DNA of 44,589 bases, taken from IMG/VR virus record IMGVR_UViG_3300047554_000370, positions 1-44,589 of that record; one strand, 5' to 3'. This DNA is from a virus. A program made the translations under genes and the position numbers. The notes below the pieces were generated by a model. The model was not told the origin of the DNA, searched no databases, and was given only the letters and a program-made list of their open reading frames with translations. Shown piece by piece: positions 1,769 through 44,589 of this stretch. Positions within the stretch are counted from its first letter, which is position 1. Each line of letters begins with the position of its first letter.

Positions 1769-3025
1769 ATGCTGGGGGAATCTAACTTTTTCGATCAGTA
1801 CCTAGCGTACACTTCAGGAATCGAGCCCCCGGCTGTGTTCCAAAGATGGTGTGCGATTGCAGGTATAGGCGCTTTGCTAGGCCGACAGTACTATTTCCAG
1901 CATGGCCACTTCACGATTTATCCTAATACTTATGCAATGCTCATTGGTTCTCCAGGTACACGTAAGTCCTCAGCAATCAAGCTAATGAGATCCATCCTGC
2001 TTCAATCTGGTTATACCACCATTGCAGCAGACAAGAGTACGAAAGAGAAATTCCTTTTAGACCTAGCAGGAGAAGATAATGGAATGTCCAGTGTCGATGA
2101 TATCTTGGATCAAAACCTTTTTGGAAATGGAGATGACAAGTCTGATTCCGAAATGTTTATCATGGCCGACGAGTTTAATGATTTCTTCGGTAATGGGAAT
2201 ATTGAGTTCGTATCTTTGCTTGGTACTCTTTGGGACTTTTCTGGTGTTTATCGAAACCGGATCAAGAATGGTAAGAGTGTTGACATCAATAATCCTACCG
2301 TTTCTATCCTTGGTGGTAATACTCCTACCGGCTTCAGTCTGGCTTTTCCAACTGATATCTTAGGACAAGGTTTCTTCTCTCGCATCCTACTAATCTACGG
2401 CGAACCAAATGGAAAACGAATTGCCTTCCCAACTAGGCCAACAGACGCAGCCACTGCCAATCTTATTGAGTCTCTTAGATCAATTAAATCCACAGTATTC
2501 GGACCAGCCCAGCTCACTCGAAGTGCAGAGAGACTCCTTGAAGAAATTTATACAAGCAACCCTACAGTTGATGATGTCAGATTTGCCTCATACTCTAACC
2601 GCAGATTTGTCCACCTCATCAAACTCTGCCTTATTGTTAGTGCAAGTAGAGCATCTTCAGAAATTGCAGACTGTGATGTTATCTATGCAAACACAATACT
2701 TACACACGCTGAGCAATTTATGCCGAGGGCTCTCGGAGAATTCGGAAAGGGAAAGAACTCAGACGTAACTCATAAGGTGCTTCAGGTTATTCTAGATGCC
2801 CCCGGTGTGGTAACTATGAAAGAAATCTGGAAGCATGTGCACGCAGATTTGGAAAAGATTTCTCAGCTCCAAGAAATTCTAATCAACCTACAGCAAGCAG
2901 ATAAGATTCAGACTGTCCCTCAGATGGGCGGCTTCCTCCCTAAAAGAAAGATAGTCGATGGAACTAATGAGCTTGCTGTTGACTTCTCACTTCTTACTCC
3001 TGAAGAAAGGAACATGAAAAAATGA
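1769..3025 (+). CDS. DUF3987-like P-loop ATPase (putative replicative helicase)
   Basis: A 418-residue ATPase. The Walker A motif GSPGTRKS is at residues 60-67. A Walker B-like strand, MFIMADEF, ends with Asp134-Glu135. A later segment, NPTVSILGGNTPTGF, resembles the sensor region of DUF3987/primase-helicase-associated proteins in phages and mobile elements. The C-terminal 90 residues look like a winged-helix domain (VTMKEIWKHV...). I infer that it unwinds or loads on DNA for replication next to the DNA polymerase. No separate DnaB-type helicase or TOPRIM primase is visible in the genome, so it may be the main replicative motor. The ribosome binding site before this ATG is weak. Its stop overlaps the MazG-like gene by ATGA. 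Confidence 0.75.
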   Translation: MLGESNFFDQYLAYTSGIEPPAVFQRWCAIAGIGALLGRQYYFQHGHFTIYPNTYAMLIGSPGTRKSSAIKLMRSILLQSGYTTIAADKSTKEKFLLDLAGEDNGMSSVDDILDQNLFGNGDDKSDSEMFIMADEFNDFFGNGNIEFVSLLGTLWDFSGVYRNRIKNGKSVDINNPTVSILGGNTPTGFSLAFPTDILGQGFFSRILLIYGEPNGKRIAFPTRPTDAATANLIESLRSIKSTVFGPAQLTRSAERLLEEIYTSNPTVDDVRFASYSNRRFVHLIKLCLIVSASRASSEIADCDVIYANTILTHAEQFMPRALGEFGKGKNSDVTHKVLQVILDAPGVVTMKEIWKHVHADLEKISQLQEILINLQQADKIQTVPQMGGFLPKRKIVDGTNELAVDFSLLTPEERNMKK

Positions 3026-3612
3026 ATGCATCCCCAGGTACCTACGCTGATTTTGTGTCAGTCACTATTGCTTCCCCTGAAGCTCCTCCAGTTCAAGAGA
3101 CTATTCGATACGATCAATTTGTTCGTTGGCTATTTAAAGCTGATACTGAGCCAATGATGGCATTGCACTCAGTTCTTGGTTTGAGTGGAGAGCTTGGTGA
3201 ATTGATAGAAGCTGATCAGAGTTTTGATGAGAGAGGTGTGATCGAAGACGCAGGTGACTTTGAATTCTATCTGCAAGCTGTGCGGAATCACTATGGAATT
3301 GTTAGGTCATCTGTTCAGGATTTTGGGCAAGTTCTAATGCCCTCAGAGCATCCTGAAGTTCGACTCACCATTGCAGTAGGAGAACTTGTTGATGTTGTGA
3401 AGCGAGAATATATCTACGGTAAGCCTCGTGATATGGAAGCACTGCGTATAGCGATTACGAAAACTGAAAATGCAATGCGAGCTTACTACCCAATTCCTCG
3501 AATCTCTATCCTTCAAGCAAATGCAAACAAACTCTCTAAGAGTTATTCTGCGCTCCGCTACTCAGATGCAGATGCAATTGCAAGGGCAGACAAGAATGCA
3601 CCTGGGACCTAA
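3022..3612 (+). CDS. MazG-like NTP pyrophosphohydrolase
   Basis: A 196-residue all-alpha protein. LGLSGELGELIEADQ (near residue 50) carries the ExxE motif and EDAGDFEFYL the ExxD motif that bind Mg-nucleotide in MazG and dUTPase-2 folds. The C-terminal NANKLSKSY...DADAIARAD matches the closing signature of phage MazG-like proteins. The family hydrolyses nucleoside triphosphates to monophosphates; in phages it may act on dNTP pools or on alarmones. Between motif and tail there is an extra block of about 60 residues with a second GELVDVVKREY segment, which looks like a partial internal duplication. A good ribosome binding site (AAAGGAA) precedes the start. Confidence 0.8.
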   Translation: MNASPGTYADFVSVTIASPEAPPVQETIRYDQFVRWLFKADTEPMMALHSVLGLSGELGELIEADQSFDERGVIEDAGDFEFYLQAVRNHYGIVRSSVQDFGQVLMPSEHPEVRLTIAVGELVDVVKREYIYGKPRDMEALRIAITKTENAMRAYYPIPRISILQANANKLSKSYSALRYSDADAIARADKNAPGT

Positions 3613-3955
3613 AACTAAGCCCATAGCAGAAATAGCAGTGCAGAAACATTTGCTAGGTCTGCTATGTAAGTTCCACTATTCCAAGCGCCAACTGGTAGAA
3701 CTAACTGGCGTGAGGATGACAACGATATGTAGGTGGATTGAGACATATCATCGAGGTCCCAATAACCTAGTGTATATTGCAAAGTGGGAACGATCTAAAA
3801 CTGTTGGACCTTACACTGCATTCTTTGCTTTCGGTTACTGTCTAGAGGATGCACCTAAACCGTTGCCTCTGACTAAGAAAGAGAAGAATCTAAAAGCCCG
3901 ACGCCCCCGTCGAATTGAACGAACAGAGAAAGGACTTATCCATGTCGCTTGTTAA
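3596..3955 (+). CDS. Helix-turn-helix protein
   Basis: A 119-residue basic protein. I chose the ATG at 3596 because AAGGG lies just upstream; a longer start at 3470 would lie wholly inside the MazG-like gene. Residues 28-52 (HYSKRQLVELTG then TTICRWIETY) read as a helix-turn-helix of the kind found in small phage regulators. The C-terminus is Lys/Arg-rich (KKEKNLKARRPRR). It probably binds DNA or RNA and could regulate the operator-like dyads in the early arm, although nothing ties it to a site. Its 3' end overlaps the exonuclease gene by 14 bp. Confidence 0.7.
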   Translation: MHLGPKTKPIAEIAVQKHLLGLLCKFHYSKRQLVELTGVRMTTICRWIETYHRGPNNLVYIAKWERSKTVGPYTAFFAFGYCLEDAPKPLPLTKKEKNLKARRPRRIERTEKGLIHVAC

Positions 3956-4490
3956 TCTCCCCGGAGAATCTGTGCACGTGATGGTAGATATTGAGACTCT
4001 TGATACAGAAGAGACCGCAGTAATTCTATCCATCGGCGCTTGCTTGGTTCCTAGAACTACTTGTCAGTTCTATGTAGAATGCGAACAGGGCCTAGGCCAG
4101 TTGAATAGAACAATTTCTCAGAGTACCCTTGATTGGTGGAATACTCAGCCTGTTGGATTGAAACCTAATGGTCATGATCTTCTGATTGATTCACTAACTT
4201 GGTTCAGTCACTGGCTTACACAACTTCCAGGTAAGCCTATCATCTGGGCAAAGGGAATTGATTTCGAGACCAAGATTCTGGCTAACGCGTACAAGATGTA
4301 TGGACTTCCAGTACCTTGGAAATACAATGATGTACGAGATTTCAGGACACTGAAAAAGGTATTCATCTCTGTACTAGGAGATTCTATTCCTGAAAACGCT
4401 CAACCACACAATGCACTAGCTGACGCAAAACATCAAGCTGATGTATTGGAAATGATTATCCGAAACTCCCCAAGTCTGATCCTATCATGA
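3942..4490 (+). CDS. DEDDh 3'-5' exonuclease (DexA/DnaQ-like)
   Basis: A 182-residue nuclease of the DnaQ superfamily. MVDIETL gives the first metal ligands Asp16 and Glu18. The motif TLDWWNTQ is typical of the DexA / Rv2179c-like subgroup. GIDFE supplies Asp107, and PHNALADAKHQAD supplies His156 and Asp161 of motif III, so all DEDDh residues are visible. Such enzymes degrade single-stranded DNA or RNA from the 3' end. The start at 3942 has GAAAGGA 8 bp upstream. The polymerase in this phage has its own proofreading domain, so this enzyme probably serves host nucleic acid breakdown or RNA turnover. Confidence 0.85.
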   Translation: MSLVNLPGESVHVMVDIETLDTEETAVILSIGACLVPRTTCQFYVECEQGLGQLNRTISQSTLDWWNTQPVGLKPNGHDLLIDSLTWFSHWLTQLPGKPIIWAKGIDFETKILANAYKMYGLPVPWKYNDVRDFRTLKKVFISVLGDSIPENAQPHNALADAKHQADVLEMIIRNSPSLILS

Positions 4491-4756
4491 GCGAACATAC
4501 ACGTAAACTAGCCCTTGAGATGTTCCCCAATCAGATCATTGATCTGCATACCGAGGTTCGTAAACATCCAAGGCTAATGCAAATCCTTCACGACCAGGAC
4601 AATAAGGATGTCTACATTCAACTTCTCGAAATTGCTACATACTGTGATATCCTTGCTGTTGGAGATTTCACAAGAGATCAGATTCTTGATCTGTGTGTGC
4701 AGATGACTAGGAAGCTTTATTCGATGCGAAGCAGTATCATCATCCCAATGGCTTGA
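4487..4756 (+). CDS. Hypothetical protein, last gene of the rightward arm
   Basis: An 89-residue, mostly helical soluble protein. Its start overlaps the exonuclease stop by ATGA. It is the final gene before the convergent terminator at 4785. I recognise no family or catalytic motif. Confidence 0.65.
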   Translation: MSEHTRKLALEMFPNQIIDLHTEVRKHPRLMQILHDQDNKDVYIQLLEIATYCDILAVGDFTRDQILDLCVQMTRKLYSMRSSIIIPMA

Positions 4757-4784
4757 TCGCTACGAAATCTATGGACAAAAGAAT

Positions 4785-4808
4785 GCCCCCGTAATTGGGG
4801 GCTTTTTT
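4785..4808 (+). terminator. Convergent intrinsic terminator
   Basis: A perfect 6-bp stem, GCCCCC / GGGGGC (4785-4790 with 4797-4802), with a 6-nt loop and then six T residues (4803-4808). It ends the rightward transcript. Read leftward, the same stem is followed by ATTCTTTTG, so it may also stop the structural operon, whose last stop codon abuts the T-run. It sits in the 50 bp between the two convergent arms. Confidence 0.9.
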
Positions 4809-4992
4809 ACGCCTGTTGATTTGGCGCCATATATTCAAAGTAGAGCTTCTTAGCTTCCTGGCTCTTCTTGAATATCTGAGCTTCAGAGATGTAGAGAGGA
4901 AACCTTGGAGCCCAAGCTACCCAGCGATTAGAAGTTAGCTTCTTCATCTGGTCCTCTACTTCTCTAACCTTTGGAGTGTCTAGGTTAATCAC
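4807..4992 (-). CDS. Hypothetical protein, last gene of the leftward arm
   Basis: A 61-residue protein starting with GTG, overlapped with the upstream stop by GTGA, so probably coupled to it. It is hydrophilic, with Trp- and Lys-rich stretches and no recognised motif. It ends in the loop-proximal T-run of the convergent terminator. Confidence 0.55.
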   Translation of the reverse strand: MINLDTPKVREVEDQMKKLTSNRWVAWAPRFPLYISEAQIFKKSQEAKKLYFEYMAPNQQA

Positions 4993-5276
4993 ACTCTCTT
5001 CACTCCAAGCAGATCATAGAGCTTCAAGTATTCTTGAGTCAGATCTTTTGCCCAAATGACTGCATCATCTGAAGTTGCTGCTAGTTTGCCAATCAGCACA
5101 CTCTTCAGAATTTCAAGGAAGATACCACCTTCTGTACTCGGAGCGCCAGCTTCTGCGGCTGCCATCTTTTCCATGGCCTCAGCTTGACGCTGACCAATAG
5201 CTACAGATTTAGTTCTCCACTCTAGCAGACTAGGATCAGTCGGGGGAACTCCAGGATTGGTAGGATCAAGGGCCAT
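4989..5276 (-). CDS. Hypothetical protein, 95 aa
   Basis: A 95-residue protein with a Pro-rich N-terminus (LDPTNPGVPPTDP) and a helical remainder. The ribosome binding site TTGGAG precedes the ATG. It lies after the LamG-like virion protein, so it may be a minor virion or accessory protein; no family is recognised. Confidence 0.6.
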   Translation of the reverse strand: MALDPTNPGVPPTDPSLLEWRTKSVAIGQRQAEAMEKMAAAEAGAPSTEGGIFLEILKSVLIGKLAATSDDAVIWAKDLTQEYLKLYDLLGVKRV

Positions 5277-5300
5277 GTTAACTCCAATGTGTAAATAGAT

Positions 5301-6665
5301 CTAAGAAACTCTAGTAGCCCTATCTAGGCCAATAGAGATACGATTCAGAGTGACTGCGGTAACTGAGCCTGCAGGAATAAAGATGATACTTGCAGAACCA
5401 GAGAATACAATCTGCCCTGAGGGAACAGTGACACGAGTGCGAACTAGAGGAACTGTACCAGTGAATGTGATATTACCTGCTGGCACCATCACACGAGTAC
5501 GAAAAAGCGGTACGGTTCCTGAAAAAGAAAGACCTCCAGATGGAATCTGTACTCTTGTACGCAGAAGAGGAACAGCTCCTGAAAGAGTAAACCCTCCGCT
5601 AGGTGTAATAGTGTAGATTGTTCCACCAGTTGCAGGAACAAAAGTGATGGGCGCCGTACCACTAAAAGTTATCTGTCCGCTAGGAACTTGAGCGCGAGTG
5701 CGAAGAAGAGAGACTCCGCCCGAGAAAACAATTCCACCGCTAGGAACTTGTACATGAGTACGTCTCAGAGAGGCTGAACCGGAAAATGCTATAGACCCAG
5801 AAACAGGTTGAACATGAGTACGAAGAAGTGATGCAGCTCCAGAGAATGCAATTCCCCCAGAAGGAGTGATGGTATAGATTGTACCACCACCACCTGCAGG
5901 AGTCCAGATTCTCTCTCTTGGCGCAGAGTAGATATGCCAAGGATTATCAGCAAGATCCTTTATCTCTTTTGCAGAAAGCCTGCGATTCCAAACTGCGCCA
6001 TAATAGTAAGTGGCACCGACGCCAACAATACCAAAAGGATTAGCTGCACCCCCCAGAGATATTTGAGTGAAAGAGGCATCATAAATTAGTGATGTTCCTC
6101 CGACAGCTACTGTACCGAGCGAAACTCCATTATTGTAGAGTTCCATAGTTGAACCATCGCAGGTCATTACAACCACGTTCAACTGATTCAGTAGAAGTTT
6201 TCCCGAGGCTGAACCTATAGCTCTAGTTGAGCCATCCCAAATAATGGCTTGAAGTGTTCCATCAGAAAATCGAGATTGAAGATTCCAGCCAGTTCCTGTG
6301 CCAATACCTGCTGCAAAGATATTATCCGCAGAACTATATACGTATGGATTAAATACTGCTACGACAGTAAAGATGGGACTGGTGAATCGAAAACTATCTG
6401 GGCCGATAGTAGGCTGCCCATTGGAAATTCGATCCCAGCTTACGCCTGTAGTCCCAGAAGTTGCAGACCCAATACCTCTACCATCTTTAGCATTCAGCTC
6501 AGTTTGGGAAAACTGCCAAGCTTGGATACCGGAAACTAGATCGCCTTTTAACCCAGGTCCAGCATTCGCCAGCGCAGTTAGGCCTCGTGTTATCGAAGCC
6601 TGCCTGTTAATTAACGGAACTAGAGGTTGTCTAGTTTGAAGCCGAGAGCTATAGAAGAATCCCAT
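5301..6665 (-). CDS. LamG-like virion protein with tandem beta repeats
   Basis: A 454-residue putative surface or tail protein. Residues about 85-255 resemble a concanavalin A/LamG-like lectin domain, including MELYNNGVSLGTV and the closing KDLADNPWHIYSAP, a phrase typical of phage LamG proteins. Residues 262-436 form two modules of 87 residues, each starting TIYTITPSGG and each made of four units of about 20 residues (consensus near VPSGxIxFSGxxxLxRTRVQ). LamG domains commonly bind glycans, so a role in host recognition or capsid/tail decoration is likely. GGAG lies 5 bp before the ATG. Confidence 0.7.
   Translation of the reverse strand: MGFFYSSRLQTRQPLVPLINRQASITRGLTALANAGPGLKGDLVSGIQAWQFSQTELNAKDGRGIGSATSGTTGVSWDRISNGQPTIGPDSFRFTSPIFTVVAVFNPYVYSSADNIFAAGIGTGTGWNLQSRFSDGTLQAIIWDGSTRAIGSASGKLLLNQLNVVVMTCDGSTMELYNNGVSLGTVAVGGTSLIYDASFTQISLGGAANPFGIVGVGATYYYGAVWNRRLSAKEIKDLADNPWHIYSAPRERIWTPAGGGGTIYTITPSGGIAFSGAASLLRTHVQPVSGSIAFSGSASLRRTHVQVPSGGIVFSGGVSLLRTRAQVPSGQITFSGTAPITFVPATGGTIYTITPSGGFTLSGAVPLLRTRVQIPSGGLSFSGTVPLFRTRVMVPAGNITFTGTVPLVRTRVTVPSGQIVFSGSASIIFIPAGSVTAVTLNRISIGLDRATRVS
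5358..5882 (-). repeat. Two 87-residue coding repeat modules (8 subunits)
   Basis: Within the LamG-like gene, module 1 spans 5882-5622 and module 2 spans 5621-5358, directly abutting with a 261-bp period. Each module starts TIYTITPSGG, continues with RTHVQ/RTRV-type units of 20 residues, and closes with an F(V/I)PA segment. The copies have diverged at both protein and DNA level, so the duplication is not recent or is under diversifying selection. Confidence 0.85.
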
Positions 6666-6677
6666 TATAGCTCCAGA

Positions 6678-7154
6678 TTAGGAGTAATAGCCTTCTCGCC
6701 AAGTTGCACCGACAGTTGCACCAAGTGCAGTGCCTGCATCATTATAGAGAACAATACCCCACTTCACAGGAACGCAGCCAAAGATAGAAACCAGTTCGAA
6801 AGTTTCTCGCACAGTTACCGCTACTGCGCCCTGATTCAGTTGCAATGTGCCGATGCGAATTAGATTCGTAGGATTACCAATTGCAGTAAGTGCCTTATCG
6901 GTACCATCCACGTTATCAGTGGTGCCTGAGTTACCTAGATAGTTCGTTCCATCCTCTGACCAATACCCATACACAATGATCTGCTTATTCCCGGACGGAG
7001 CGGTAGCAGTTGTGAGTGCAGATACGGTCAGAAGAATAGAATCAGTGTTATTCGTAGTTCCGGAAGTTACTGCTGCGGACGAACGATTAGCTCCCGAAGC
7101 CAGAGAGGCAGCAGTAATAGTTAGCGAAGCAGAGCTAGTAAACTGCTTGGCCAT
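6678..7154 (-). CDS. Putative virion structural protein
   Basis: A 158-residue Ser/Thr/Ala/Gly-rich protein of predicted beta structure, with AGGAG before the start. The composition and its place in the run of small structural genes suggest a minor capsid, tail or decoration protein. It contains the phrase VYGYWSEDGTNYLG but no motif I can link to a named family. Confidence 0.6.
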   Translation of the reverse strand: MAKQFTSSASLTITAASLASGANRSSAAVTSGTTNNTDSILLTVSALTTATAPSGNKQIIVYGYWSEDGTNYLGNSGTTDNVDGTDKALTAIGNPTNLIRIGTLQLNQGAVAVTVRETFELVSIFGCVPVKWGIVLYNDAGTALGATVGATWREGYYS

Positions 7155-8135: not shown

Positions 8136-8537
8136 TTAAAAGTATCCGAGGGAAGCAGCACGCTCACGAGTAAGACCTACTCGACGAGGTTCCGGAATTT
8201 CTTCATATCGTGCAAGTTTCAGGTTACCTGCAGGAGTACGATAAGTACCCACAGTTTCTCCAGAAGCTGCAACCAAATGAACTTCAGCATATCCAGAGGA
8301 ATCAAGTTCCCAGACAATGCCAATTCGATTAGAAGAATCAACCACCCACTTCAGACGCTTTAGGAGAATACCTCCCTGCATGTGAGGAATGATAAGCTTC
8401 ACATTTCGATTACCTGCGTGCTGGAACTCATGCACATTTCCTTCAGGGGCCGGCGGCTCCTCAGGAAGAATGATAGGAGAAGGAGTGGATGGAGCAGGCT
8501 GCGGCTTAGGTCCAAAGAGTCGAGACATCAGATTCAT
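8136..8537 (-). CDS. Hypothetical protein with Pro-rich N-terminus
   Basis: A 133-residue protein. Residues 9-32 are rich in Pro and form a likely disordered linker (PKPQPAPSTPSP). The remainder alternates short beta strands. The first ATG is preferred over the one three codons later because AAGGAG lies 6 bp upstream. It is located among small structural genes; no family recognised. Confidence 0.6.
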   Translation of the reverse strand: MNLMSRLFGPKPQPAPSTPSPIILPEEPPAPEGNVHEFQHAGNRNVKLIIPHMQGGILLKRLKWVVDSSNRIGIVWELDSSGYAEVHLVAASGETVGTYRTPAGNLKLARYEEIPEPRRVGLTRERAASLGYF

Positions 8538-21315: not shown

Positions 21316-22536
21316 TCAGCCAGAGGCTGCTGCCGTCAGATTGGTGATGATTGCATTGGCCGGAGGATTCTTGACAACGCAAGTCAGTTCACTGGTAAGA
21401 GTACCACCAACTGCGTCGATGCCATTATCCACAACTTGACCACTCACGTTGAACTCTTGCTTGGAAGTCTTACGACCATTCAAGTAAGCCAGACGGAAAG
21501 TGCTCAGGTCAACTGCAATCGCGTACTTGCTCCAGTCGGCATTGCTATTGAACAGCGGATGCTCAATCATGTTGAAGCTACCACGAGCAATGTTGAAACT
21601 GCCGAATTGCAGACCGTAGTTGGTCTGACCATTCTGGATGAAGTAAGTACCATTCAGACGACCAATGTTATTGATCACCTTACGAGCGGCGCCGCCAACA
21701 AACAGAACACGTTGATTACCAACCTTCGGATCAGTTGCCTGATTGAAAACCGGATCAAGAGCAGTTTCGAGCTGAGTAAAGTTCGTAGTACCGCCAGCAG
21801 TCGTGTTATTGACAACACCACCGTAGCTAGCAGGATAATACGCCGGATTCAGGATGATGTTACGCAGACCATCCATGGTACGGAAAGGTTGACCGTTCCG
21901 AGTACCTTGAGATTTGGTACCAAAGAACAGAGCCTTTTCGATATCAGCCGCATGGAAAGCAGCACAATCCATACGAGATTCTGCAATCGTCGTATCACCG
22001 GCAATAACTTGAGTAGCCTGAGCAGAGCCAGACAGAGCCCAAGTATTACGGAAAATCTGAGTCAGATTGGTAATACGAACCGGGTTGATTTGCAGAGCAT
22101 TCGGGCGCACCGAAGATTCTTCAAATGCATTACCGACTTGATAGAAGTTCACATTGTCTGCAATTGCAGCAGCGGTGGAACCAACACCACGAGTCACGCT
22201 AACAGTAGTGCTCGACAGGACAGAGTTGATAATCACAACTTCACCAGTCGATTCAGCGCGCATCAACATACCAGGCAAAAGATCGGTAGTCGAAGCAACA
22301 GTGAAAGTGGTATCAGTAGCGTTAGCAACTGCGGCGTCCAAGTTCATGCTGGGGAAAAGCATAGTCTTGGTGAAGAAGCCGTGTTCGACTTGAACAGCAG
22401 TTTCTTCCGGAAGCATGGCAGTCATACCAAACAAAGGTGCTTGGCCATTAGGCATCAGACGAGTGATCGTCGATGCAAATGACTTCTTAGCCAGGTCGGT
22501 AGTAAAGCCAGAGCTATTGAAAATAGCGGTAGTCAT
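21316..22536 (-). CDS. Major capsid protein (SU10/DUF5309-like)
   Basis: A 406-residue HK97-fold candidate. A beta insertion (TDTTFTVASTTDLLPGMLMRAE, in parts) followed by the ADIEKALFFGTKSQGTR ... FRTMDGL stretch resembles the SU10-type major capsid family. It comes directly after scaffold and decoration-like genes, as expected. Codon use differs from most neighbours: it favours CTG, CGT/CGC, GGT and CCG, which is consistent with very high expression. A ribosome binding site (TAAGGA) precedes the start, and a long hairpin follows the stop. Confidence 0.85.
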   Translation of the reverse strand: MTTAIFNSSGFTTDLAKKSFASTITRLMPNGQAPLFGMTAMLPEETAVQVEHGFFTKTMLFPSMNLDAAVANATDTTFTVASTTDLLPGMLMRAESTGEVVIINSVLSSTTVSVTRGVGSTAAAIADNVNFYQVGNAFEESSVRPNALQINPVRITNLTQIFRNTWALSGSAQATQVIAGDTTIAESRMDCAAFHAADIEKALFFGTKSQGTRNGQPFRTMDGLRNIILNPAYYPASYGGVVNNTTAGGTTNFTQLETALDPVFNQATDPKVGNQRVLFVGGAARKVINNIGRLNGTYFIQNGQTNYGLQFGSFNIARGSFNMIEHPLFNSNADWSKYAIAVDLSTFRLAYLNGRKTSKQEFNVSGQVVDNGIDAVGGTLTSELTCVVKNPPANAIITNLTAAASG

Positions 22537-23020: not shown

Positions 23021-23794
23021 TCAGGAGCCTGAACCGATTGTGACCGGAGAAGTTGCCCAGCTATCCCAGTCGAAATCATTGGAGCCAGAAGCAGGCTTGG
23101 GAGATTCCGTAGGTTTGCCAGACAAGACACCGGCAGCAGACTTGAAGTATTCTTGAGCCATTTCAGCGAGTTCGCTGGAGCTGGCATTCGGAAACTTCGT
23201 TTGAAGTTGGGATTGAATTGCTGCCACAACTGGGGCAACTGCAGGATCTTTGAACGCAGGATTTTCTCGGAGGAGACTCTCTTGCGCAGTCTGTCGTTTC
23301 ACCAACCCAGGCAATTGTTCTGTAAACTCTCGCCGTGCTTTATCTACAGCAGTTTCCACAAGTTTTTGTGCTACTACAGTAGATTGTCCATAGACAGTTT
23401 GAGCTGTCTTATTCAGAAGTCCTGCAAGTGCTTGAACTGCTTCTTCTCCACCTGCCTGAATCTTTGCCAGCGAAGCTTGATCCAGAACTCGAGTGAAGTC
23501 TACTTTACTAGCAGCTTCGAGCATTTGCTCAGGAGTAAGGCCCGCAGATTGTTGTGGCTGCTTGCCTTCTTCCACCTTCACAGGTTCCCACAAGTCCTTA
23601 AATCGCTCAGTAGGGGATTGCGTAGGAGCAGCTTGATTACCTTCGGGAGGAACAACACCATTAGGTGCAGTTGCCTGAGATTGATGAGGCTGGGCGCCAG
23701 GTTGGTTCTGAGCAGGATTGTTCGTAGGAACTTGCTGGGGAGCAGCTTGCTGGGGTGCGGGAGAATTGCCAAAGATCTTATCGAAGAAAGACAT
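23021..23794 (-). CDS. Scaffolding protein
   Basis: A 257-residue protein, hydrophilic and mostly helical. Residues 12-75 are very rich in Gln, Pro, Asn and Ala, and likely disordered. Residues 85-215 form long helices with Ala, Glu and Gln. The C-terminal tail has DFDWDSWATSP, a Trp/Asp motif of the kind that contacts capsid subunits in other scaffolds. Length, composition and place between portal and capsid genes support a scaffold. No protease motif is present. Confidence 0.75.
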   Translation of the reverse strand: MSFFDKIFGNSPAPQQAAPQQVPTNNPAQNQPGAQPHQSQATAPNGVVPPEGNQAAPTQSPTERFKDLWEPVKVEEGKQPQQSAGLTPEQMLEAASKVDFTRVLDQASLAKIQAGGEEAVQALAGLLNKTAQTVYGQSTVVAQKLVETAVDKARREFTEQLPGLVKRQTAQESLLRENPAFKDPAVAPVVAAIQSQLQTKFPNASSSELAEMAQEYFKSAAGVLSGKPTESPKPASGSNDFDWDSWATSPVTIGSGS

Positions 23795-23797
23795 GAT

Positions 23798-24109
23798 TTA
23801 TTCCTGAGGGTTGTGATCCGAAGAAAGATTAACAGGCCTAAGTCCCGGATCTAATTGGACTTCTGCCGACTGGGAAAGCGTAATGAGATATTGCAGAGCT
23901 TGGATTTGACCTTTAAGAGCAGCTTCCTCCTGCAGAAATTTCATGGGATGGTCTGGATCGAATTCGAGATTAGACTTCTGAGTAGCTACTTGAGCAATCT
24001 GATTCTGCACTACCTGCTTTTGCAGTGAGGTGAGAACAGAACCTTGAAGGAACTCTTGTTCAGTAAGAATCCAAGATTGAAAGAGAGAGTCAGGATTGAG
24101 GCGTGCCAT
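23798..24109 (-). CDS. Hypothetical helical protein next to scaffold
   Basis: A 103-residue, Gln-rich helical protein. Its ATG overlaps the endolysin stop (TAATG), so it is coupled to it. The phrase EFDPDHPMKFLQEEAALKGQI recalls small proteins near phage portal genes. It might assist head assembly; the function is unknown. Confidence 0.6.
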   Translation of the reverse strand: MARLNPDSLFQSWILTEQEFLQGSVLTSLQKQVVQNQIAQVATQKSNLEFDPDHPMKFLQEEAALKGQIQALQYLITLSQSAEVQLDPGLRPVNLSSDHNPQE

Positions 24110-24456
24110 TATTTATGCCCATCATGTTCAAGAGAATAGTGATTACCATCACCGAATCGACCACCCCAAGAACCTCCAATAGATTCCCAGAACTGTCCCA
24201 GAGGAAGATGATCACTAGTGTCTTTTAACCATCTGCCATTCTTAAACAAATTGATATCTTCCGCGAGTCGAACCTTGTGCTGAGAGTATGATTCTCCATA
24301 ACCTTTGCGCTCTCCCATCTTACCAAAGACCAACTCAGCTCGATATCCATCACCCTGAGTAATCTCATATCCATTCTTCCAAGCAAAAGCATAGAGCTGA
24401 GCTTTCATCCGCATGAAGCGGAATTGTTTCTGCAGAAGAGTTTCACGCTGCGCCAT
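24109..24456 (-). CDS. M15-family peptidase endolysin
   Basis: A 115-residue zinc peptidase of the VanY/M15 type, cutting peptide cross-links in peptidoglycan. SQHKVRLAED supplies zinc ligands His60 and Asp67. GDGNHYSL supplies catalytic Asp103 and the third ligand His106 (DxxH). The run GQFWESIGGSWGGRFGDGNH is a hallmark of phage M15 endolysins, and the length is normal for the single-domain form. No signal peptide, so it needs a holin. The start lies 14 bp inside the portal gene with GGAGG upstream, which is an unusual place for a lysis gene. Confidence 0.88.
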   Translation of the reverse strand: MAQRETLLQKQFRFMRMKAQLYAFAWKNGYEITQGDGYRAELVFGKMGERKGYGESYSQHKVRLAEDINLFKNGRWLKDTSDHLPLGQFWESIGGSWGGRFGDGNHYSLEHDGHK

Positions 24457-26464
24457 TTGTCATACCTCCACCAGTTCCAGGATTAGAAAGAGCTGCCTGA
24501 GCTTGAGCAGCAGGAGAAACTTGTTGAGGATTCCAACCAAAATCTGCTGGCTTAGGTTGAGGTGTAGAAATCTGTGCACCCTTCTTAGCAGCTTCCATTG
24601 CTACAGCTTGCCAAGATCCCATTGCTTGTTCATACGCCATCTGCTCAGGAGACTTCTCGAACGGAGCGAAGTCTACATTCTCAACCTTCATCAGATACGA
24701 GAACAGAGGAGCAATGTTATATGCCTGAGCAATCGGAGCTGAAGAGCCAATAACTTGCATGGCAATCTTCATGTTATCCGACGAGATTACCTTCTCACTA
24801 GGAAGGAGACCATCAGTAACCTTGAAATTCAGAATAGCCTTCCGGAGTGCAACAGGATCAACATCCACAACTTGTTTCTGGGACTCAGAATAAATGGAGG
24901 CCGCGCCCTGGTATTGCAGAACATTCAGCTTCAGAATCTCTTTCAGATGAGTAAACACCTGAGCTTCATACAAGAGAGATGTAATCTGATCCTGAGATGT
25001 TGCATTAGACATTGTGGACTGCCATTGTCCATCAGTCTTATTACCTTTTACGAATTGACCTTGGCGCGCCTGGTTCTGTCCAAGAAGTACATTAGAGAAC
25101 TGAACAAGGCCCTGAATCTCCTGCATATTAATGCCAGATTGATCGTCACGATATGGGAACTGATAGACAGATTCACCAACTGGCTTACCATACGCTGAGG
25201 GGCGAACAGGAATCTTTGCAGAAGGGTTCGCAGAATTCATGTGAGACTCTGAGACCCGAGAAGGATCATAGAGAACTCGATCAGTAATGGAACGGCGACG
25301 AGCTGCCAGAACTGAGTTCATCAGTGCAGAAGATACTTGCTGGAAAGGCAGAGCATCTTGGGCCATAGATTTAGTTTGGTAACCCAGGCCATCTTCCGCA
25401 GGACATCCGAACAACACAGGAATCTTCTCGTGAGCATTTGTCTGGCGCTCAGCATAGATGATCACCGAATGATTCACAATGATAAGTTTCCATACCTGGG
25501 GAGTATTCGGTGCAGGAACCCTCATGTTATAGTCGGAGGGAATGATACGAACATACTCGGTAGATACTTCGTAGATCCCACGATAGTTGATCCGGCCGGC
25601 ATTCTTAGAGGAGTTCGCCAGACCAACCCAAGTATCCCAATCTGTATACCCAATCAGCTCAGGGTCCAGAAGTGCATCTGGATTGATCAGAGGAAGATAG
25701 TACGAAGCTCCGTATTGTCCACCTCCGATGGGAGAAAGAAGAGAAGGAGATTCGAAAGCGGGTTGGATATTCTCAATGATCTTATTCTCAAGCTTTGCAA
25801 TGAAAGTCTTGAGAGCAGTACGAGACATGAGAACTGTATGACCTACGAATTCACCCTTATCTGGGATTTCATAAGGCTCCACACGGCAGTCGAAATATGT
25901 ATTATACGGGTCCCAACGAGTAATCCGATTCCCAGACCAGATTACATTCTTAATCTTCGAGCCAGAAGAAGACGTGGGATCAGTTTCCAGAGCAGCAGTT
26001 GCAACAGTATCCCAGCAGCATTCAATAGCTGAGAGGTTGTACTTAAATCCATCTTGGAAGAAAAGAAGGAATTCACGAACCCAGGAACCCCGAACTGAAT
26101 TCTCCTCGAAAACTGCCTGCATTTGGCGCGCGGCATCAATAAACTGAGGAGCAGCAGTTACCCCAAAGAAGGGGTAGTCAGTCAGAAAGATTGCAGCTTG
26201 GTAAGCTACAGCAGCTCGGATCTGAGGCTTGATGATCGGAATGGTGACATTCTGGATACGATTCGAATCGCCCATCCGATTGAGAATCTTGGCACGTTGA
26301 TTCTCTTCAGTATTATCCTGCTCACGAATGTAAGCTAGGTCAATCTGCCTAAGCTGTTCTTTGATATTCCATTGACGATCTACCAAAGTAGATGCTGTGC
26401 GATGGTATTGAATAAGCCCTTCTTGAGCAGGCTTAGAGATTTGAAATGCTTGGGGAGGTGCCAT
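24443..26464 (-). CDS. Portal protein
   Basis: A 673-residue portal, forming the dodecameric DNA channel at one capsid vertex. The helical start and the NVTIPIIKPQIRAAVAYQAA region are typical of podovirus portals, followed by a long alpha/beta stem-clip-wing body and a QSTMSNATSQDQ crown segment. The C-terminal 60 residues are Pro/Gln/Ala-rich. It lies after large terminase and a zincin-like gene, and before endolysin and scaffold. The ribosome binding site is within a 10-bp palindrome, AGGATATCCT. Confidence 0.85.
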   Translation of the reverse strand: MAPPQAFQISKPAQEGLIQYHRTASTLVDRQWNIKEQLRQIDLAYIREQDNTEENQRAKILNRMGDSNRIQNVTIPIIKPQIRAAVAYQAAIFLTDYPFFGVTAAPQFIDAARQMQAVFEENSVRGSWVREFLLFFQDGFKYNLSAIECCWDTVATAALETDPTSSSGSKIKNVIWSGNRITRWDPYNTYFDCRVEPYEIPDKGEFVGHTVLMSRTALKTFIAKLENKIIENIQPAFESPSLLSPIGGGQYGASYYLPLINPDALLDPELIGYTDWDTWVGLANSSKNAGRINYRGIYEVSTEYVRIIPSDYNMRVPAPNTPQVWKLIIVNHSVIIYAERQTNAHEKIPVLFGCPAEDGLGYQTKSMAQDALPFQQVSSALMNSVLAARRRSITDRVLYDPSRVSESHMNSANPSAKIPVRPSAYGKPVGESVYQFPYRDDQSGINMQEIQGLVQFSNVLLGQNQARQGQFVKGNKTDGQWQSTMSNATSQDQITSLLYEAQVFTHLKEILKLNVLQYQGAASIYSESQKQVVDVDPVALRKAILNFKVTDGLLPSEKVISSDNMKIAMQVIGSSAPIAQAYNIAPLFSYLMKVENVDFAPFEKSPEQMAYEQAMGSWQAVAMEAAKKGAQISTPQPKPADFGWNPQQVSPAAQAQAALSNPGTGGGMTNGAA

Positions 26465-26479
26465 GTGGAGGATATCCTA

Positions 26480-27583
26480 TTAAGGGTTTGATTTCTTAGA
26501 TGCGAGGGCGTCGCGAATGATCTGTTGGATTACAGGATCATTGTCTACTTTTCGAACTTCTTCGTGACCACGAATCATACGGTTTAGCTCATACTCATCC
26601 CCATAGTAAGAAAGAGCTGGGCGACCAGACTGCATTGTTCCGCGTTGCATTGTTTCAACTGCACGAGCTTCTGCTTCTCCCGCAGACTTCTTGTACATAG
26701 AATTTGCATCCCCATAAGCATTGCTAAGAACTTCAAATTCTTTGTACTGTTTCGAAGAGAGCAGAGCTTTTTGAGCATCTCGAAACTGATCTGGGTCAGA
26801 CATGAATAGCCAAGGATTAGATCCTGGATTCATGTTATACTTACTCTGAACACCGTGCTGAGTTTCGTGGAGAATAGATTGAATAATCTCCATCTGGTCT
26901 CGTTGAGGCCCAAGAGAGATATAGTTTGAGGCAGAGTTAAAAGAAGCTACTCCAGGATCGTATGCAGGATTATGACCTACCATCAGATTTCTTGTGAAGG
27001 GAGCTGATTGATAGAGTTGAGGAAAGTCAAGGACTTCTGGGAGTCGGAATACAACCCCAGAGGCTAATTCAGTTCCTGCAGTATTAGTAACTCCAGGGCG
27101 TAGATTTACGTAAGATGGATCAATGACAGCTCGGAGAACGCCATCATCGATATTATCAGGAAGCCGGAAAATCCCGGTATACTTCTCAACCTGGGCTGCA
27201 TCAGTTCCAGAGTTCAGTGCTTGTTCAGCTTTCTTCACAGTTTTCAGAGACTTTGTGAGGAATGCGGGAACTACGATTGCCTTGAGAATATTCCCTGGAT
27301 TCGACAGAGATCCAATGAATTCGCTTGTTCCATCTTTCTTCTTCGTTCCTGTGGCGGCCGAGAACATTTGCTCAGACCGATCTTTCTCGCCAAGATAGGA
27401 GGTATCACCAGCAAGCCTATCTGCCACATCTGCAAGGAATCCAGGAATATCAGTAGTAATAGCTTTAGCGGCTCCTCGAATCATTCCGAGAATGCGATTA
27501 CCAACTTCCTTGTCTTCTGCCTGATAGCGTACTTGCCGTTCAGCCAGAGTTTCGTATTTCTTAATTGGCGCCGGATCAGCCAT
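26480..27583 (-). CDS. HExxH zincin-like protein between terminase and portal
   Basis: A 367-residue protein. The helix IIQSILHETQHGVQ contains the zinc-protease motif HETQH (residues 239-243), and a downstream Glu lies in the helix AGEAEARAVETMQRG (residues 301-315), as a third ligand should. The arrangement recalls the metallopeptidase-like LPD domains of phage polyvalent proteins. Residues 1-135 are helical and Lys/Ala-rich, and may be a packaging or anchor domain. It may be a head-maturation protease or an injected enzyme acting on host proteins. AAGGA precedes the start. Confidence 0.68.
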   Translation of the reverse strand: MADPAPIKKYETLAERQVRYQAEDKEVGNRILGMIRGAAKAITTDIPGFLADVADRLAGDTSYLGEKDRSEQMFSAATGTKKKDGTSEFIGSLSNPGNILKAIVVPAFLTKSLKTVKKAEQALNSGTDAAQVEKYTGIFRLPDNIDDGVLRAVIDPSYVNLRPGVTNTAGTELASGVVFRLPEVLDFPQLYQSAPFTRNLMVGHNPAYDPGVASFNSASNYISLGPQRDQMEIIQSILHETQHGVQSKYNMNPGSNPWLFMSDPDQFRDAQKALLSSKQYKEFEVLSNAYGDANSMYKKSAGEAEARAVETMQRGTMQSGRPALSYYGDEYELNRMIRGHEEVRKVDNDPVIQQIIRDALASKKSNP

Positions 27584-27591
27584 GAGATTCC

Positions 27592-29217
27592 TTAGAACGG
27601 AGATGTTTCGTAGGCGTCTCGTACAGGAATCTCATTGACTTCCTGAACATTAAGGGTAAGCTGACTTGCAATGAACTCTCCATATAGTTCGATCACTTTA
27701 GGAGAATATGTGAGCAAGTCAAGAATACCGTCTACGTTATTTGTTTTCGTTGCATTGAAAGAAGTAACCTGAGAGAACACTTGTGCTCGAGTAGCTTGGG
27801 CGAGCCAGATATCTTTCGCCATCAACTGCTTGAACATATCCAGGATACGAGAATTCTTAGATCGTTGTCCTGAATAAATGTCTAGGAAGTGGATACCAAT
27901 CACTCCCATCTGCTGACAGATGAAATTACTCCAGTAGAGGTATGAGTATTGATAGGCATTGGACTCTACTGTTACGACGGCACAATTGTACTTGAAGCAC
28001 AGTTTAAGGGATTCCCGGATTGAATCACCGGGGGAGAGTCTACCTTCTATGATTTCCCTACACACGGGTTTTCCATCCCAGATTTCAAAGTATCCTAGAG
28101 AGACAGCATCTGAGTTAGCTTTATCATTTGAAGGGTCGATGATGATAAAGTTTCCTTGGTGTTGCCCAGAAGATAATTCTTCTTCATAAGGACAAGGAGG
28201 AACCTTAGATGTGTCGATCAGTAGGTTAACAGATGCATTCTCATCATTGAGCACTTCAGCATGGAAAACCTCTGGGCGCCCTGCTTGCAAATCGTTCTGA
28301 TATTCTTTCAGAAGCTGTTCAAGAGGCTGAAGATCTTCCCAGAGAGATTCTACATTACCATCTTCTTTCTGAATAATTCCGCCCGCAATGAATTTCACCC
28401 AATTAGGATTCTGCTTGAGGCGACGAAGGATACTCCACTTTGTGGGATACATATTCCCAATGAAGATGAACAGACAACCATGAGGCGACTTTGCCTTCAT
28501 AGCTGTACCGTACATATCTGTTTCTATCTGCTCTGAAATAGTTTGGGAATCTGCATCAGCCCTAGATTGGATATCATCAAACACCATTACATCTGGGCGC
28601 TGGTGTTTCACATTTAGACCGCGAACGGATTCTACAGTACCTGCGTGAAGTACAATAGTACGACCACGGAAACCGAACTTCTTTAGGATCTGGTTATCAG
28701 TTTCTAGTCCTAGGCGCCAATCTCCGAAAATAGCTTTTACATTAGGCTCATCTAGGAAGTCACAAACGTCAGCTAGAATTGCAACCGCCTTAGGAAGTGA
28801 GTTTGCGAGGACAAGAATGAATGAGCGGCGAGTAAATAGGATTACATAGAGCAGGAAGATTTTTACGAATGTGGTTTTTGCGAAACCTCGTGGAAGTCCA
28901 ATAGCGAGTTGGGAGAAATCCCGCTCTTTATGCACATATGAGACTAGCCACTTCCACATCTGCTGGAACACAGAAGGAAAGAAGTAGCGAAAAACTGTTG
29001 GGAGCGCGAGAGCAGCTAGAAAGTCTAGAGAATTTCGGGCAGTTTCTTGGGCTTCTTGAGCAGAAACAGATACTGCCTGCACTGGGTCTACTGTTTCAGC
29101 ACTTTTCTGTTGAGATTCATAGGCTGCAAGCTCTGCCGCAGCTTTAGAATGCACAGAAGGAGTGTCGGAAGGGGGAAAACCCAGAGCGCGCGAGATATCT
29201 CCAGACTTAGGAAGCAC
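27592..29217 (-). CDS. terL: Terminase large subunit
   Basis: A 541-residue DNA-packaging motor. The N-terminal ATPase has Walker A GLPRGFAKT (107-115) and Walker B VMVFDD (210-215), followed by a coupling motif near IFIGN. The C-terminal RNase H-fold nuclease shows FIIIDPSND (Asp361), VVTVESNAY (Glu418) and NNVDGILD (Asp496/Asp500). The start is GTG, with CGGAG 9 bp upstream, overlapping the previous gene by 11 bp. It works with the small subunit just upstream and the portal downstream. Confidence 0.93.
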   Translation of the reverse strand: MLPKSGDISRALGFPPSDTPSVHSKAAAELAAYESQQKSAETVDPVQAVSVSAQEAQETARNSLDFLAALALPTVFRYFFPSVFQQMWKWLVSYVHKERDFSQLAIGLPRGFAKTTFVKIFLLYVILFTRRSFILVLANSLPKAVAILADVCDFLDEPNVKAIFGDWRLGLETDNQILKKFGFRGRTIVLHAGTVESVRGLNVKHQRPDVMVFDDIQSRADADSQTISEQIETDMYGTAMKAKSPHGCLFIFIGNMYPTKWSILRRLKQNPNWVKFIAGGIIQKEDGNVESLWEDLQPLEQLLKEYQNDLQAGRPEVFHAEVLNDENASVNLLIDTSKVPPCPYEEELSSGQHQGNFIIIDPSNDKANSDAVSLGYFEIWDGKPVCREIIEGRLSPGDSIRESLKLCFKYNCAVVTVESNAYQYSYLYWSNFICQQMGVIGIHFLDIYSGQRSKNSRILDMFKQLMAKDIWLAQATRAQVFSQVTSFNATKTNNVDGILDLLTYSPKVIELYGEFIASQLTLNVQEVNEIPVRDAYETSPF

Positions 29218-29365
29218 GTTTCTTCTCCGGAATTGGATTCCTAGCGAGATACACTTGGATTGCTAGAAGGTGATGGCGCGCACGCTCTTTATTTCTAGCA
29301 TCTTCTGCTAACTTAGCTGCCAGAGCTTGCATTGCTTGCTGCTCCTTGAGTGAGAAGTTCGACAT
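29207..29365 (-). CDS. Small hypothetical protein between terminase genes
   Basis: A 52-residue, strongly helical and charged protein. I chose ATG 29365 because AAAGG sits about 8 bp upstream; earlier in-frame starts lack a ribosome binding site. It overlaps the small terminase gene by 53 bp and the large by 11 bp. No family recognised; position suggests a packaging accessory. Confidence 0.55.
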   Translation of the reverse strand: MSNFSLKEQQAMQALAAKLAEDARNKERARHHLLAIQVYLARNPIPEKKRAS

Positions 29366-29879
29366 TTGCATTACCTTTCTGTAAAAGTGAGGTGGCAAGA
29401 CCTGCCATTCGACCTGATTGTACAGTAATCAGATCTTGATTGCCAGCTCGTACCACCTGATTCGCTTGATTCACTTGGAAATGTTGTACGATTTGGACAG
29501 GAAGATTGAGAGAGATGACTGTTTGCTGTTGCGTAATGTGTTCTGGGGCTGACATTCCACGACGCTTTGCTCCATTGATCACTTGGATTGCACGGAGGAT
29601 TTCAAATGGCTTAGAGAGATATGGAATGATATCTTTCATCCGCTTGATAAGAGAATCTTCTAGTGAATCATATTCTGAATCACGATTATTGTGCTTGAGT
29701 AGATTACGATAACGAGCTTCCGCTACTTTATTCGCGAAAGTTTCATCAGCTAGAAACTGAGAAATAGCTGAAACTGTAACTCCTAAGGCCGCAGCAGTTT
29801 GCTCAGGTCCAACTCCAGAGCCAAGAAGATCTAAAGCTCTAGCTTCTGTGGTAGATGCAGTAATTGAATGATTTGACAT
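29313..29879 (-). CDS. Putative terminase small subunit
   Basis: A 188-residue protein and the first gene of the leftward arm. Residues 12-48 form a helix-turn-helix (ARALDLLGSG, EQTAAALGVTVSAISQFLAD) typical of small terminases that bind pac or cos DNA. The middle is helical (DSLEDSLIKRMKD, NGAKRRGM). The C-terminus is Asn/Gln/Ser-rich. Its place 96 bp before the large-subunit start supports the call. The ribosome binding site is weak (CAGG about 10 bp upstream). Confidence 0.65.
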   Translation of the reverse strand: MSNHSITASTTEARALDLLGSGVGPEQTAAALGVTVSAISQFLADETFANKVAEARYRNLLKHNNRDSEYDSLEDSLIKRMKDIIPYLSKPFEILRAIQVINGAKRRGMSAPEHITQQQTVISLNLPVQIVQHFQVNQANQVVRAGNQDLITVQSGRMAGLATSLLQKGNANVELLTQGAASNASSGS

Positions 29880-42952: not shown

Positions 42953-43335
42953 CTCTGTTCTGTGTAAAAGATGGTGATCCTAGCTCCGATGGTTGGAATC
43001 AACCTCTGAAGAAAGTAGTTCCTCCTACTCCTGTACCTCCGAAATATGTACCTACGGAAACTAAAGGCATTGTTCGGAACACGGAGACTGGGAAACTAGA
43101 GACTGACTTTCCTGAGTTGGAACCTCCTGCTTTGGTTGCTCCGCCCCTTAAGCCTACTGAGCTTGATAGTGATGTGTTTCTGCTGGCAGAAGCATTGCGT
43201 AAACAGGTCTATCAAGACATGCTAGCTAACACTTTCAAGCAGTTTGAATCTGACGCTGACTGGAGAGTTCGCCAGATTGAAGGAATATCTACTCGCTCCT
43301 GCAGGAACTACGCAGCTAAGATTTCTAAGAAATGA
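42949..43335 (+). CDS. Hypothetical protein with Pro-rich linker, 128 aa
   Basis: ATG 42949 overlaps the previous stop by ATGA. Residues 20-75 are Pro/Thr/Glu-rich (VVPPTPVPPKYVPT), and the last 50 residues are helical. The gene ends with an ATGA overlap to DNA polymerase, so a polymerase accessory role is possible but unproven. Confidence 0.6.
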   Translation: MTLFCVKDGDPSSDGWNQPLKKVVPPTPVPPKYVPTETKGIVRNTETGKLETDFPELEPPALVAPPLKPTELDSDVFLLAEALRKQVYQDMLANTFKQFESDADWRVRQIEGISTRSCRNYAAKISKK

Positions 43336-44589
43336 CTCACGCGCTTTTTCTCGGCACTGAGGATGATCGTTCTTATGTGCCACATCTTAAAGGTATGTTC
43401 AATGGCTTGACTACTTACGTAGTTCTTGAGCCTTGGTCATACCTTATTCAATTGGAGACTTATTGTGCAAAACGTGATGTCACGAAAGTCGTATGTACTA
43501 ATACCAAAATCTTGGCGTGCCTTCTCGCACTCGAAGGGAATATCAAGACTGATCCTAGTCTCGCCGATTATGCGGGCTCCGTCTTTGCATACAAGTCCAT
43601 CGAGATTGTATTCATTAGTCCATTGTCGCAACTGTTCAGTGTCAGCTACGGTAAATTCTTGGCTGGACGATATGTCTCGAAGGTCGCTAACCCAAGTGCG
43701 TGGAACGAAGCAACACCTTTTAAGTGGGCACTTCTAACTCCTGAGAATGCAGATGCAGTCTATCAACGCGCGCTTTCAGCATATGCTATCGCAACTGACA
43801 TCGAGACATTTAAGTCTCCTTTGTCTATTCGTTGTATTGGCTACACATTTATTTATCTAGATTCATCTGGGCGGCTGACCACTGAATCTGTGGTCCTTCC
43901 TCTTGACTCTGATTGGTCTCTATCTTGGATGCGGATTCTCAATCTGCTGCCTGCTCCTAAGATTTTTCAGAATGGAAAGTACGATGTTAGCTATCTACTG
44001 CGGTACAATGCCGTCCCGTTCAACTGGCTCTGGGATACAGCACATTTATTTCACTGTCACTATTCCGAGCTACCAAAAGATCTTGCTTTCCTTAATGCCT
44101 TCTTTCTTCGTAAGGTGGTATACTGGAAAGATCTTGCAGAAACAAATGATCTTCAAGAGTATTATAGATATAATGCTCTCGACACCTGGGCTACTGCAAA
44201 TGTCTGGATTAACCAGATGCTCCAGATGCCTGACTGGGCAAGGAAAAACTATCTTCTGGAATTCCCACTTGTTTATCCATGTCTCCTTGCTGAGATGACA
44301 GGACTGAAGAGAGATACAAATGCGTTGCAAAAAGCCAGAAAAGAAGTTGATGCACAGATTGAAACACAGCTTACCTCGTTGCGTAGATCGCTCGGGTCTA
44401 GCTCGTTTAATCCTAACTCGCCCGTCCAAGTCAAAACTCTACTCAAGATCCTTGGCTGTGGAGATATTACATCTACCAACGAGAAAGATCTGGCCAAAGC
44501 GTCGTATCGCCATCCGCTTAATTCATTACTCATTGGAAAGATCCTTGAGATTCGCGGCTTCCGTAAACTCAGCTCAACATATCTGAGGA
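43332..44589 (+). CDS. Family A DNA polymerase, N-terminal (exonuclease) part
   Basis: The gene starts at 43332 and runs off the right end, continuing from base 1. This part holds an N-terminal domain of about 150 residues with no named fold, then a 3'-5' proofreading exonuclease: ATDIETF (Asp156, Glu158), FQNGKYDVSYLL (Asn214, Asp218) and YRYNALDT (Tyr280, Asp284). All DEDDy residues are present, so the enzyme should be high-fidelity. The polymerase motifs follow in the left-end part. Confidence 0.92.
   Translation, partial: MTHALFLGTEDDRSYVPHLKGMFNGLTTYVVLEPWSYLIQLETYCAKRDVTKVVCTNTKILACLLALEGNIKTDPSLADYAGSVFAYKSIEIVFISPLSQLFSVSYGKFLAGRYVSKVANPSAWNEATPFKWALLTPENADAVYQRALSAYAIATDIETFKSPLSIRCIGYTFIYLDSSGRLTTESVVLPLDSDWSLSWMRILNLLPAPKIFQNGKYDVSYLLRYNAVPFNWLWDTAHLFHCHYSELPKDLAFLNAFFLRKVVYWKDLAETNDLQEYYRYNALDTWATANVWINQMLQMPDWARKNYLLEFPLVYPCLLAEMTGLKRDTNALQKARKEVDAQIETQLTSLRRSLGSSSFNPNSPVQVKTLLKILGCGDITSTNEKDLAKASYRHPLNSLLIGKILEIRGFRKLSSTYLR
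44463..44589. repeat. 127-bp terminal identity, right copy
   Basis: Identical to 1-127. See the left copy: it closes the map in frame within the DNA polymerase gene. Confidence 0.95.

Follow-up and report, generated by a model that had tools for sequence, protein, structure and literature searches.

Between the large terminase (TerL) and portal genes of this virus lies a gene whose 367-aa product is, on profile comparison, a solo LPD23–zincin, a module otherwise found inside phage polyvalent proteins of 1,400–3,700 aa that are presumably injected. We propose that this protein is probably a virion-packaged and ejected zinc metalloprotease with an N-terminal delivery module, encoded in a cassette slot between TerL and the portal gene. 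The ORF occupies positions 26480..27583 of the minus strand of the window, i.e., the whole 44,589-nt stretch analyzed here (ATG at 27583, stop at 26480), exactly where the preliminary description had placed it. Both ends of the window (238-1236 and 43332-44589, plus strand) match one 810-aa gene of a relative, so the IMG/VR record probably represents a complete circular genome opened within this gene.

The gene forms part of one operon-like run in the order TerS, TerL, the ORF, portal, a 103-aa ORF, scaffold, a 134-aa ORF and major capsid protein (MCP), with TerS, TerL, portal, scaffold and MCP on the minus strand like the ORF itself. Its 5' neighbor is TerL (27592..29217; PHROG 38, E=6.8e-42), preceded by a helix–turn–helix protein that we regard as a putative terminase small subunit on the grounds of conserved synteny and a weak HTH_23 match (29313..29879), and its 3' neighbor is the portal protein (24443..26464; PHROG 15554, E=1.3e-71). 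Further along lie a 257-aa putative scaffolding protein (23021..23794), assigned by its position between portal and MCP and by conserved synteny, with a weak match to phrog_16263 (a PHROG of unknown function), and an SU10-type MCP (21316..22536; PF17236, E=7e-40, residues 9-401). Directly after the portal gene, we also observed a 115-aa M15-type, endolysin-like peptidase (24109-24456, minus strand; PF13539, E=6e-7), which among the synteny loci compared recurs only in L001, the 100%-identical copy.

Both motifs on which the preliminary description had based its reading of a zinc metalloprotease site are present. HETQH spans residues 239-243 (26855..26869, minus strand), with H239 and H243 as predicted zinc ligands and E240 as the predicted general base, and GEAEAR spans residues 302-307 (26663..26680, minus strand), where E303 is the predicted third ligand and E305 is likewise invariant; the predicted ligand residues are invariant in all 31 family members compared. 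When the window protein was shuffled as a composition control, HExxH arose in 0.2% of shuffles, and in 0.01% GExxA also came no more than 120 residues after it, rates which, together with the 31/31 conservation, rule out a chance motif. A second HExxH in the window, HEFQH in a 133-aa ORF at 8136-8537 (minus strand), lacks a zincin context and is probably due to chance.

In direct searches, the window protein had no match in Pfam, PHROGs or PDB sequences, and its family was placed only through relatives and profiles. Weak tblastn matches were obtained to polyvalent proteins of Pseudomonas phages and to gp3 of EBPR podovirus 3 (AEI70965), the sole annotated phage record matching the window protein at E<0.001; gp3 is also a solo LPD23–zincin, of 335 aa, but it is encoded upstream of TerL and lacks the C-terminal tail of the window protein. 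When a profile of 12 window-type proteins was compared with one of 12 modules cut from giant proteins, the two aligned over 221 columns at 99.9% (E=9e-36), running from KAEQALNSGTDAAQVEKYTGIF in the LPD23 part through LLHExQHxxQ to YxRxAGExEAR, whereas two unrelated control profiles reached 0.2% each against the window family. On the strength of this alignment, the window protein is identified as a solo LPD23–zincin, and the earlier suggestion of a link to LPD-domain polyvalent proteins holds as a statement of homology. The LPD23-like segment itself lies at residues ~110-156 (27116..27256, minus strand; KAEQALNSGTDAAQVEKYTGIFRLPDNIDDGVLRAVIDP) and was recognized by its profile match to the LPD23 of polyvalent proteins.

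Searches with the curated profiles followed the same lines at lower scores. PF18838 (LPD23) matched 17 of the 31 family members at E<=0.01, the window protein not among them; at the curated cut-off of 27 bits the window protein again gave no match and three relatives fell short with 21.1, 15.6 and 13.6 bits, while polyvalent homologues scored 74-83 bits. DUF6782 was matched at E<=0.01 by 17/31 relatives and MPTase-PolyVal by 1/31, in both cases below the Pfam cut-offs where individual scores were given. Searching for similar folds in BFVD returned 14 matches at E<=0.001, including several annotated as large-polyvalent-protein (LPD) domains. Across the family, LPD23–zincin modules occur both in solo ORFs of 250-560 aa and in ORFs of about 1,400-3,700 aa. 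The polyvalent representatives, e.g., Pseudomonas phage F116 gp60, phage AF gp16 and a protein of Myoviridae ctsTn925, share with the window protein the LPD23 segment, the HE[TI]QHxxQ helix and the (Y)...GExEAR helix in identical order, and homologues in Pseudomonas phages H66, Epa33, 8P and phiC725A are labeled "structural protein" or "internal virion polymerase." Unlike these modules, the window protein stands alone, with its own N-terminal module and its own gene between TerL and portal; whereas a polyvalent protein joins at least two disparate domains in one large polypeptide, its 367 residues hold only the N-terminal module, LPD23 and the zincin. F116 gp60 (L008:11395-16803) additionally carries an ADP-ribosyltransferase domain and, downstream of its LPD23–zincin, a second HExxH (HEMIH). 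A bacterial origin of the family was considered and rejected, the single genome-contig match lying inside a 3,360-aa ORF of an Oscillospiraceae MAG.

The AlphaFold model, built from 31 sequences, had a pLDDT of 82, with residues ~101-367 mostly >90 apart from a dip near 311-320, and residues 1-100 below 66. Its secondary structure delimits a zincin core at residues 181-314 (26642..27043, minus strand), in which a helix (188-199) and three strands (201-204, 213-216 and 221-224) are followed by the HExxH helix (230-248), insert helices and a Glu helix (301-314) carrying E303 and E305. The MPTase core as described by Iyer et al. 2017 consists of a helix, three strands, the HExxH helix and the Glu helix (PMC5512222), and the element order of the window protein in the model is that of this MPTase/zincin core: HExxH sits on a helix, the distal Glu on a following helix, and an N-terminal helix and three-stranded sheet precede HExxH. 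The same order is common to the MPTase-PolyVal and DUF6782 zincins (PF18818, PF20573), neither of which the window sequence matches. E303 rather than E305 may be the third zinc ligand, and zinc binding and proteolysis are predicted activities. The preliminary description had also suggested a search for a match to metzincins, which are marked by HExxHxxGxxH plus a Met-turn, an assignment that does not fit the sequence HETQHGVQSKYN, which lacks HExxHxxGxxH and has no third His/Asp at +10, showing HExxHxxQ plus a distal Glu instead. Foldseek against the PDB gave no match at E<=0.001, with PprI as a non-significant second match; the family profile searched against PDB sequences had IrrE (3dte) as its sole match, non-significant at E=0.13 and confined to the stretch leading into HExxH (G-x-Y ... 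I-x-L ... LLHExxHA). In contrast to IrrE/PprI and ImmA-type (M78) proteins, no DNA-binding or GAF-like domain was recognized in the window protein.

We then asked how the site behaves among relatives. To avoid circularity, these were gathered via homology of the neighboring portal and not via the motif, after which the TerL–portal content was read; a few loci (e.g., L012, L013, L015, L021 and L022) had initially come from a zincin scan, with their slots tied to the portal. Equivalents of H239, E240, H243, Q246, Y297, E303 and E305 were found in 31/31 LPD23-type slot proteins, and the motif, whose loss in close relatives would have spoken against the preliminary reading, was kept wherever the slot gene was of the LPD23 type. 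Over the relatives compared, identity to the window was 24-50% for the zincin, 54-80% for TerL, 46-79% for the portal and 61-89% for the MCP. Such a fast-running sequence around a fixed active-site set is as expected for an active enzyme with changing constraints elsewhere. A purely structural or idle HExxH domain has a precedent in the virion RNA polymerase (vRNAP) of phage N4, which is packaged unprocessed though its HExxH is kept (PMC5512222, PMC12633501), but for the window family we judge it improbable, since the His pair and both the catalytic and the distal Glu are kept by 31/31 proteins despite high divergence, where loss of E240 in some lineages would be expected.

The space between TerL and portal proved variable. 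When 70 loci having both genes were classed by slot content, 31 held an LPD23–zincin, 4 another HExxH protein and 15 a different ORF, while 20 were empty; explaining the LPD23 label on the portal tree takes no fewer than 10 gains or losses. L115 carries the zincin and L114 does not, although their portals are identical; of L163 and L175, with near-identical portals, only the latter has another HExxH protein. Three near-complete relatives (L167, L149 and L173; 42-44 kb) were devoid of HExxH genes in the sets built, with MCP matches of 66 and 68% for two of them and of 66%, in a separate comparison, for the third. A zincin profile search of 20 zincin-free records found nothing, and in the positive control the same search recovered 10/10 known carriers plus the divergent L145. 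The TerL–portal gap is a swapped cassette, and the zincin gene is dispensable and exchangeable. Other occupants of the slot include HNH-like nucleases and, in one clade (L117, L119 and L122), Gly/Ser/Asp-rich proteins of 218-236 aa that start with KYYPSFDPTALDGFY. Two loci with an empty TerL–portal slot encode HExYH proteins directly upstream of TerS (L128:100-1116 and L125:2889-3743), the former also with an ExxAN-like motif.

This distribution bears on the proposal of the preliminary description that the protein might be an unusual prohead or capsid maturation protease, cleaving MCP or scaffold. The gene does sit among the head genes, adjoining the portal; its catalytic residues are invariant; and, in line with the preliminary description, which saw no further capsid protease, scanning the head genes with Pfam and PHROG profiles detected no classical prohead protease. 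However, about half of the relatives with equivalent head genes do without the zincin (the 20 empty slots and 15 with a different ORF, n=70), as do the three relatives of ~42-44 kb in the sets examined; portals are identical (L115/L114) or near-identical (L175/L163) despite differing HExxH content; and the zincin sequence changes far more rapidly than those of TerL, portal and MCP. The MCP itself has no N-terminal propeptide: its fold begins at residue ~9, positions 3-292 of the SU10_MCP profile align to residues 9-401, and the start is alike in zincin-free relatives, so that, whether or not the zincin is present, MCP N-termini begin at the fold. The zincin is not retained together with MCP and scaffold, and the MCP offers no cleavable propeptide. 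Because the MCP lacks a propeptide region and the head genes include a separate putative scaffold of 257 aa, no capsid protease would be needed. Given the absence of the gene from close relatives that keep the capsid genes, the MCP N-termini, which its presence leaves unchanged, and the gene exchange, we rejected a capsid maturation protease, which we rate as highly improbable.

A second type of zincin recurs at the same place. In L098, L111 and L168, the slot holds a different protein of 195-214 aa, whose motif is HExTH and whose distal E belongs to YRxxxxE, and its relatives occupy precisely the TerL–portal gap of phages that are otherwise unrelated: L199 (3989-4603, with Terminase_6N and SU10_portal neighbors), L209 (3965-4585, with a P22_portal neighbor) and L205 (2860-3504). 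In L212, the second zincin lies within a 1,523-aa ORF right after TerL (2144-6712). The two families align around HExxH only. With Foldseek against the PDB, zincins led the list for the second family, none of them significant, and a weak match was obtained to positions 2078-2198 of the profile of N4 vRNAP, overlapping the HExxH-bearing C1 domain of that protein, which spans 2124-2375 (PMC12633501). L175 has yet another HExxH protein in its slot. The recurrence of at least two zincin types at one place in the head operon suggests that an enzyme class, and not one sequence, is selected there.

The N-terminal module of the window protein (residues 1-114, 27242..27583, minus strand) reads K-A-x-TTD-x-P-G-F-x-x-D ... 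AxxVPAF and was modeled at low confidence. It resembles a module that heads many slot zincins, with the consensus KGNTxDLLGAPVDxxN ... PVGGSxxLR ... ETAG ... KAMIV, and hhalign of the window family against the module alignment gave 98.7% (E=2e-16). In L226 (3929-5266), the module (97.8%, E=6.6e-13) shares one polypeptide with a C5 cytosine-specific DNA methyltransferase (PF00145, E=1.3e-25), and in L126, it stands before a non-zincin C-terminus and aligns over 80 residues with the L121 module at 45% identity (E=4e-18). A module common to the window family, a C5 methyltransferase and an unrelated C-terminus would correspond to an architecture of delivery module plus exchangeable effector, and a constant front with exchanged effectors, among which is a DNA methyltransferase, would be in keeping with delivery alongside the DNA. 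The module relatives were reached only via IMG/VR and profile comparison; tblastn with the module in isolated phages gave one match at E=3, and two other queries gave none. A ~90-aa C-terminal domain is common to the slot proteins L126:153-710 and L132:1111-1533, behind differing N-termini.

Two further N-termini were compared. The gene just before the portal of an Octadecabacter phage, gp20, showed a weak module match (51.9%, E=1.5e-4). For gp20 of Octadecabacter DB virus 2 (L093:9824-11335), there is a match to PHROG 21712, "major head protein," and since gp26 is annotated as the MCP of this virus, that PHROG label is probably erroneous. In the solo relative L056, the N-terminus shows 41% identity to gp19 of phage H6/1, a "putative ejection protein," and the protein ends in a GNAT domain common to DarB-like proteins. 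Profile comparison of the window family with this gp19 found no similarity, and only the L056 solo protein matches gp19; the ejection-like N-terminus of L056 may therefore be a module other than the window's, whose link to known ejection proteins is weak or indirect.

For the role of the module, the closest functional analogy is with DarB and DdrB of phage P1: an N-terminal segment targets the protein to the capsid, and after ejection it works inside the host (PMC9024508, PMC12810830). In DarB, the first 30 residues are enough for this targeting (PMC9024508), and DdrB carries an MPTase (PMC5512222). P1 has a separate prohead protease, and the likeness is one of function. By this analogy, residues 1-114 form a putative packaging/delivery module. 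We infer a course of events in which the N-terminal ~110 residues would bring the protein into the head during assembly, as in DarB, and the protein would then exit the particle together with the DNA. In the new host, H239, H243 and E303 would hold zinc and E240 would activate water, allowing the protease to cleave a host protein, most plausibly one belonging to a defense system, or a regulator; alternatively, the substrate may be a co-ejected phage protein processed by the zincin. Zinc binding, proteolysis, packaging, ejection and target are inferred steps of this proposal; the comparisons made here demonstrate LPD23–zincin homology, catalytic invariance, MPTase-like element order in a confident model, exchange of the N-terminal module, and dispensability and exchange of the gene.

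The main rival reading keeps the protease inside the cell: made early or late and never packaged, it would be a superinfection-exclusion or regulator-cleaving (ImmA/IrrE-like) moron. The patchy, swapped distribution would suit such a gene, as would the resemblance of the HExxH region to IrrE (3dte) and PprI, a Peptidase_M78 match in two family members and the presence of HNH-like nucleases in the same slot. On the other side, a common N-terminal module and homology with polyvalent proteins point to delivery, and the occurrence of zincins between TerL and portal in unrelated phages favors a link to head assembly. We regard an unpackaged protease as rather unlikely and prefer the packaged, ejected metalloprotease.

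Neither the LPD23–zincin module nor the concept of injected MPTases is new (PMC5512222), and LPD23 is also a Pfam family. In open-licence full texts, a search on LPD23 or a TerL–portal zincin yielded nothing relevant, and we found there no report of a solo form with an exchangeable N-terminal module in the TerL–portal slot, replaced by other zincins. As a small solo version in its own gene, with a separable N-terminal module, the protein is tractable for studies of activity, target and packaging, and the recurrence of two zincin families in the TerL–portal slot of unrelated phages offers a simple rule for finding candidate ejected effectors. A wider and more tentative possibility, which we put forward with considerable reserve, is that several podophage-like lineages, unrelated to one another, use the TerL–portal gap as a recurrent cargo slot, where a conserved N-terminal delivery module (or the slot itself) would be combined with interchangeable effectors. 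Most of these would be zinc proteases from two or more separate families, and they would be injected to cut host defense proteins. If true, this would constitute a modular, virion-borne anti-defense protease system, with effectors swapped as in polymorphic toxins.
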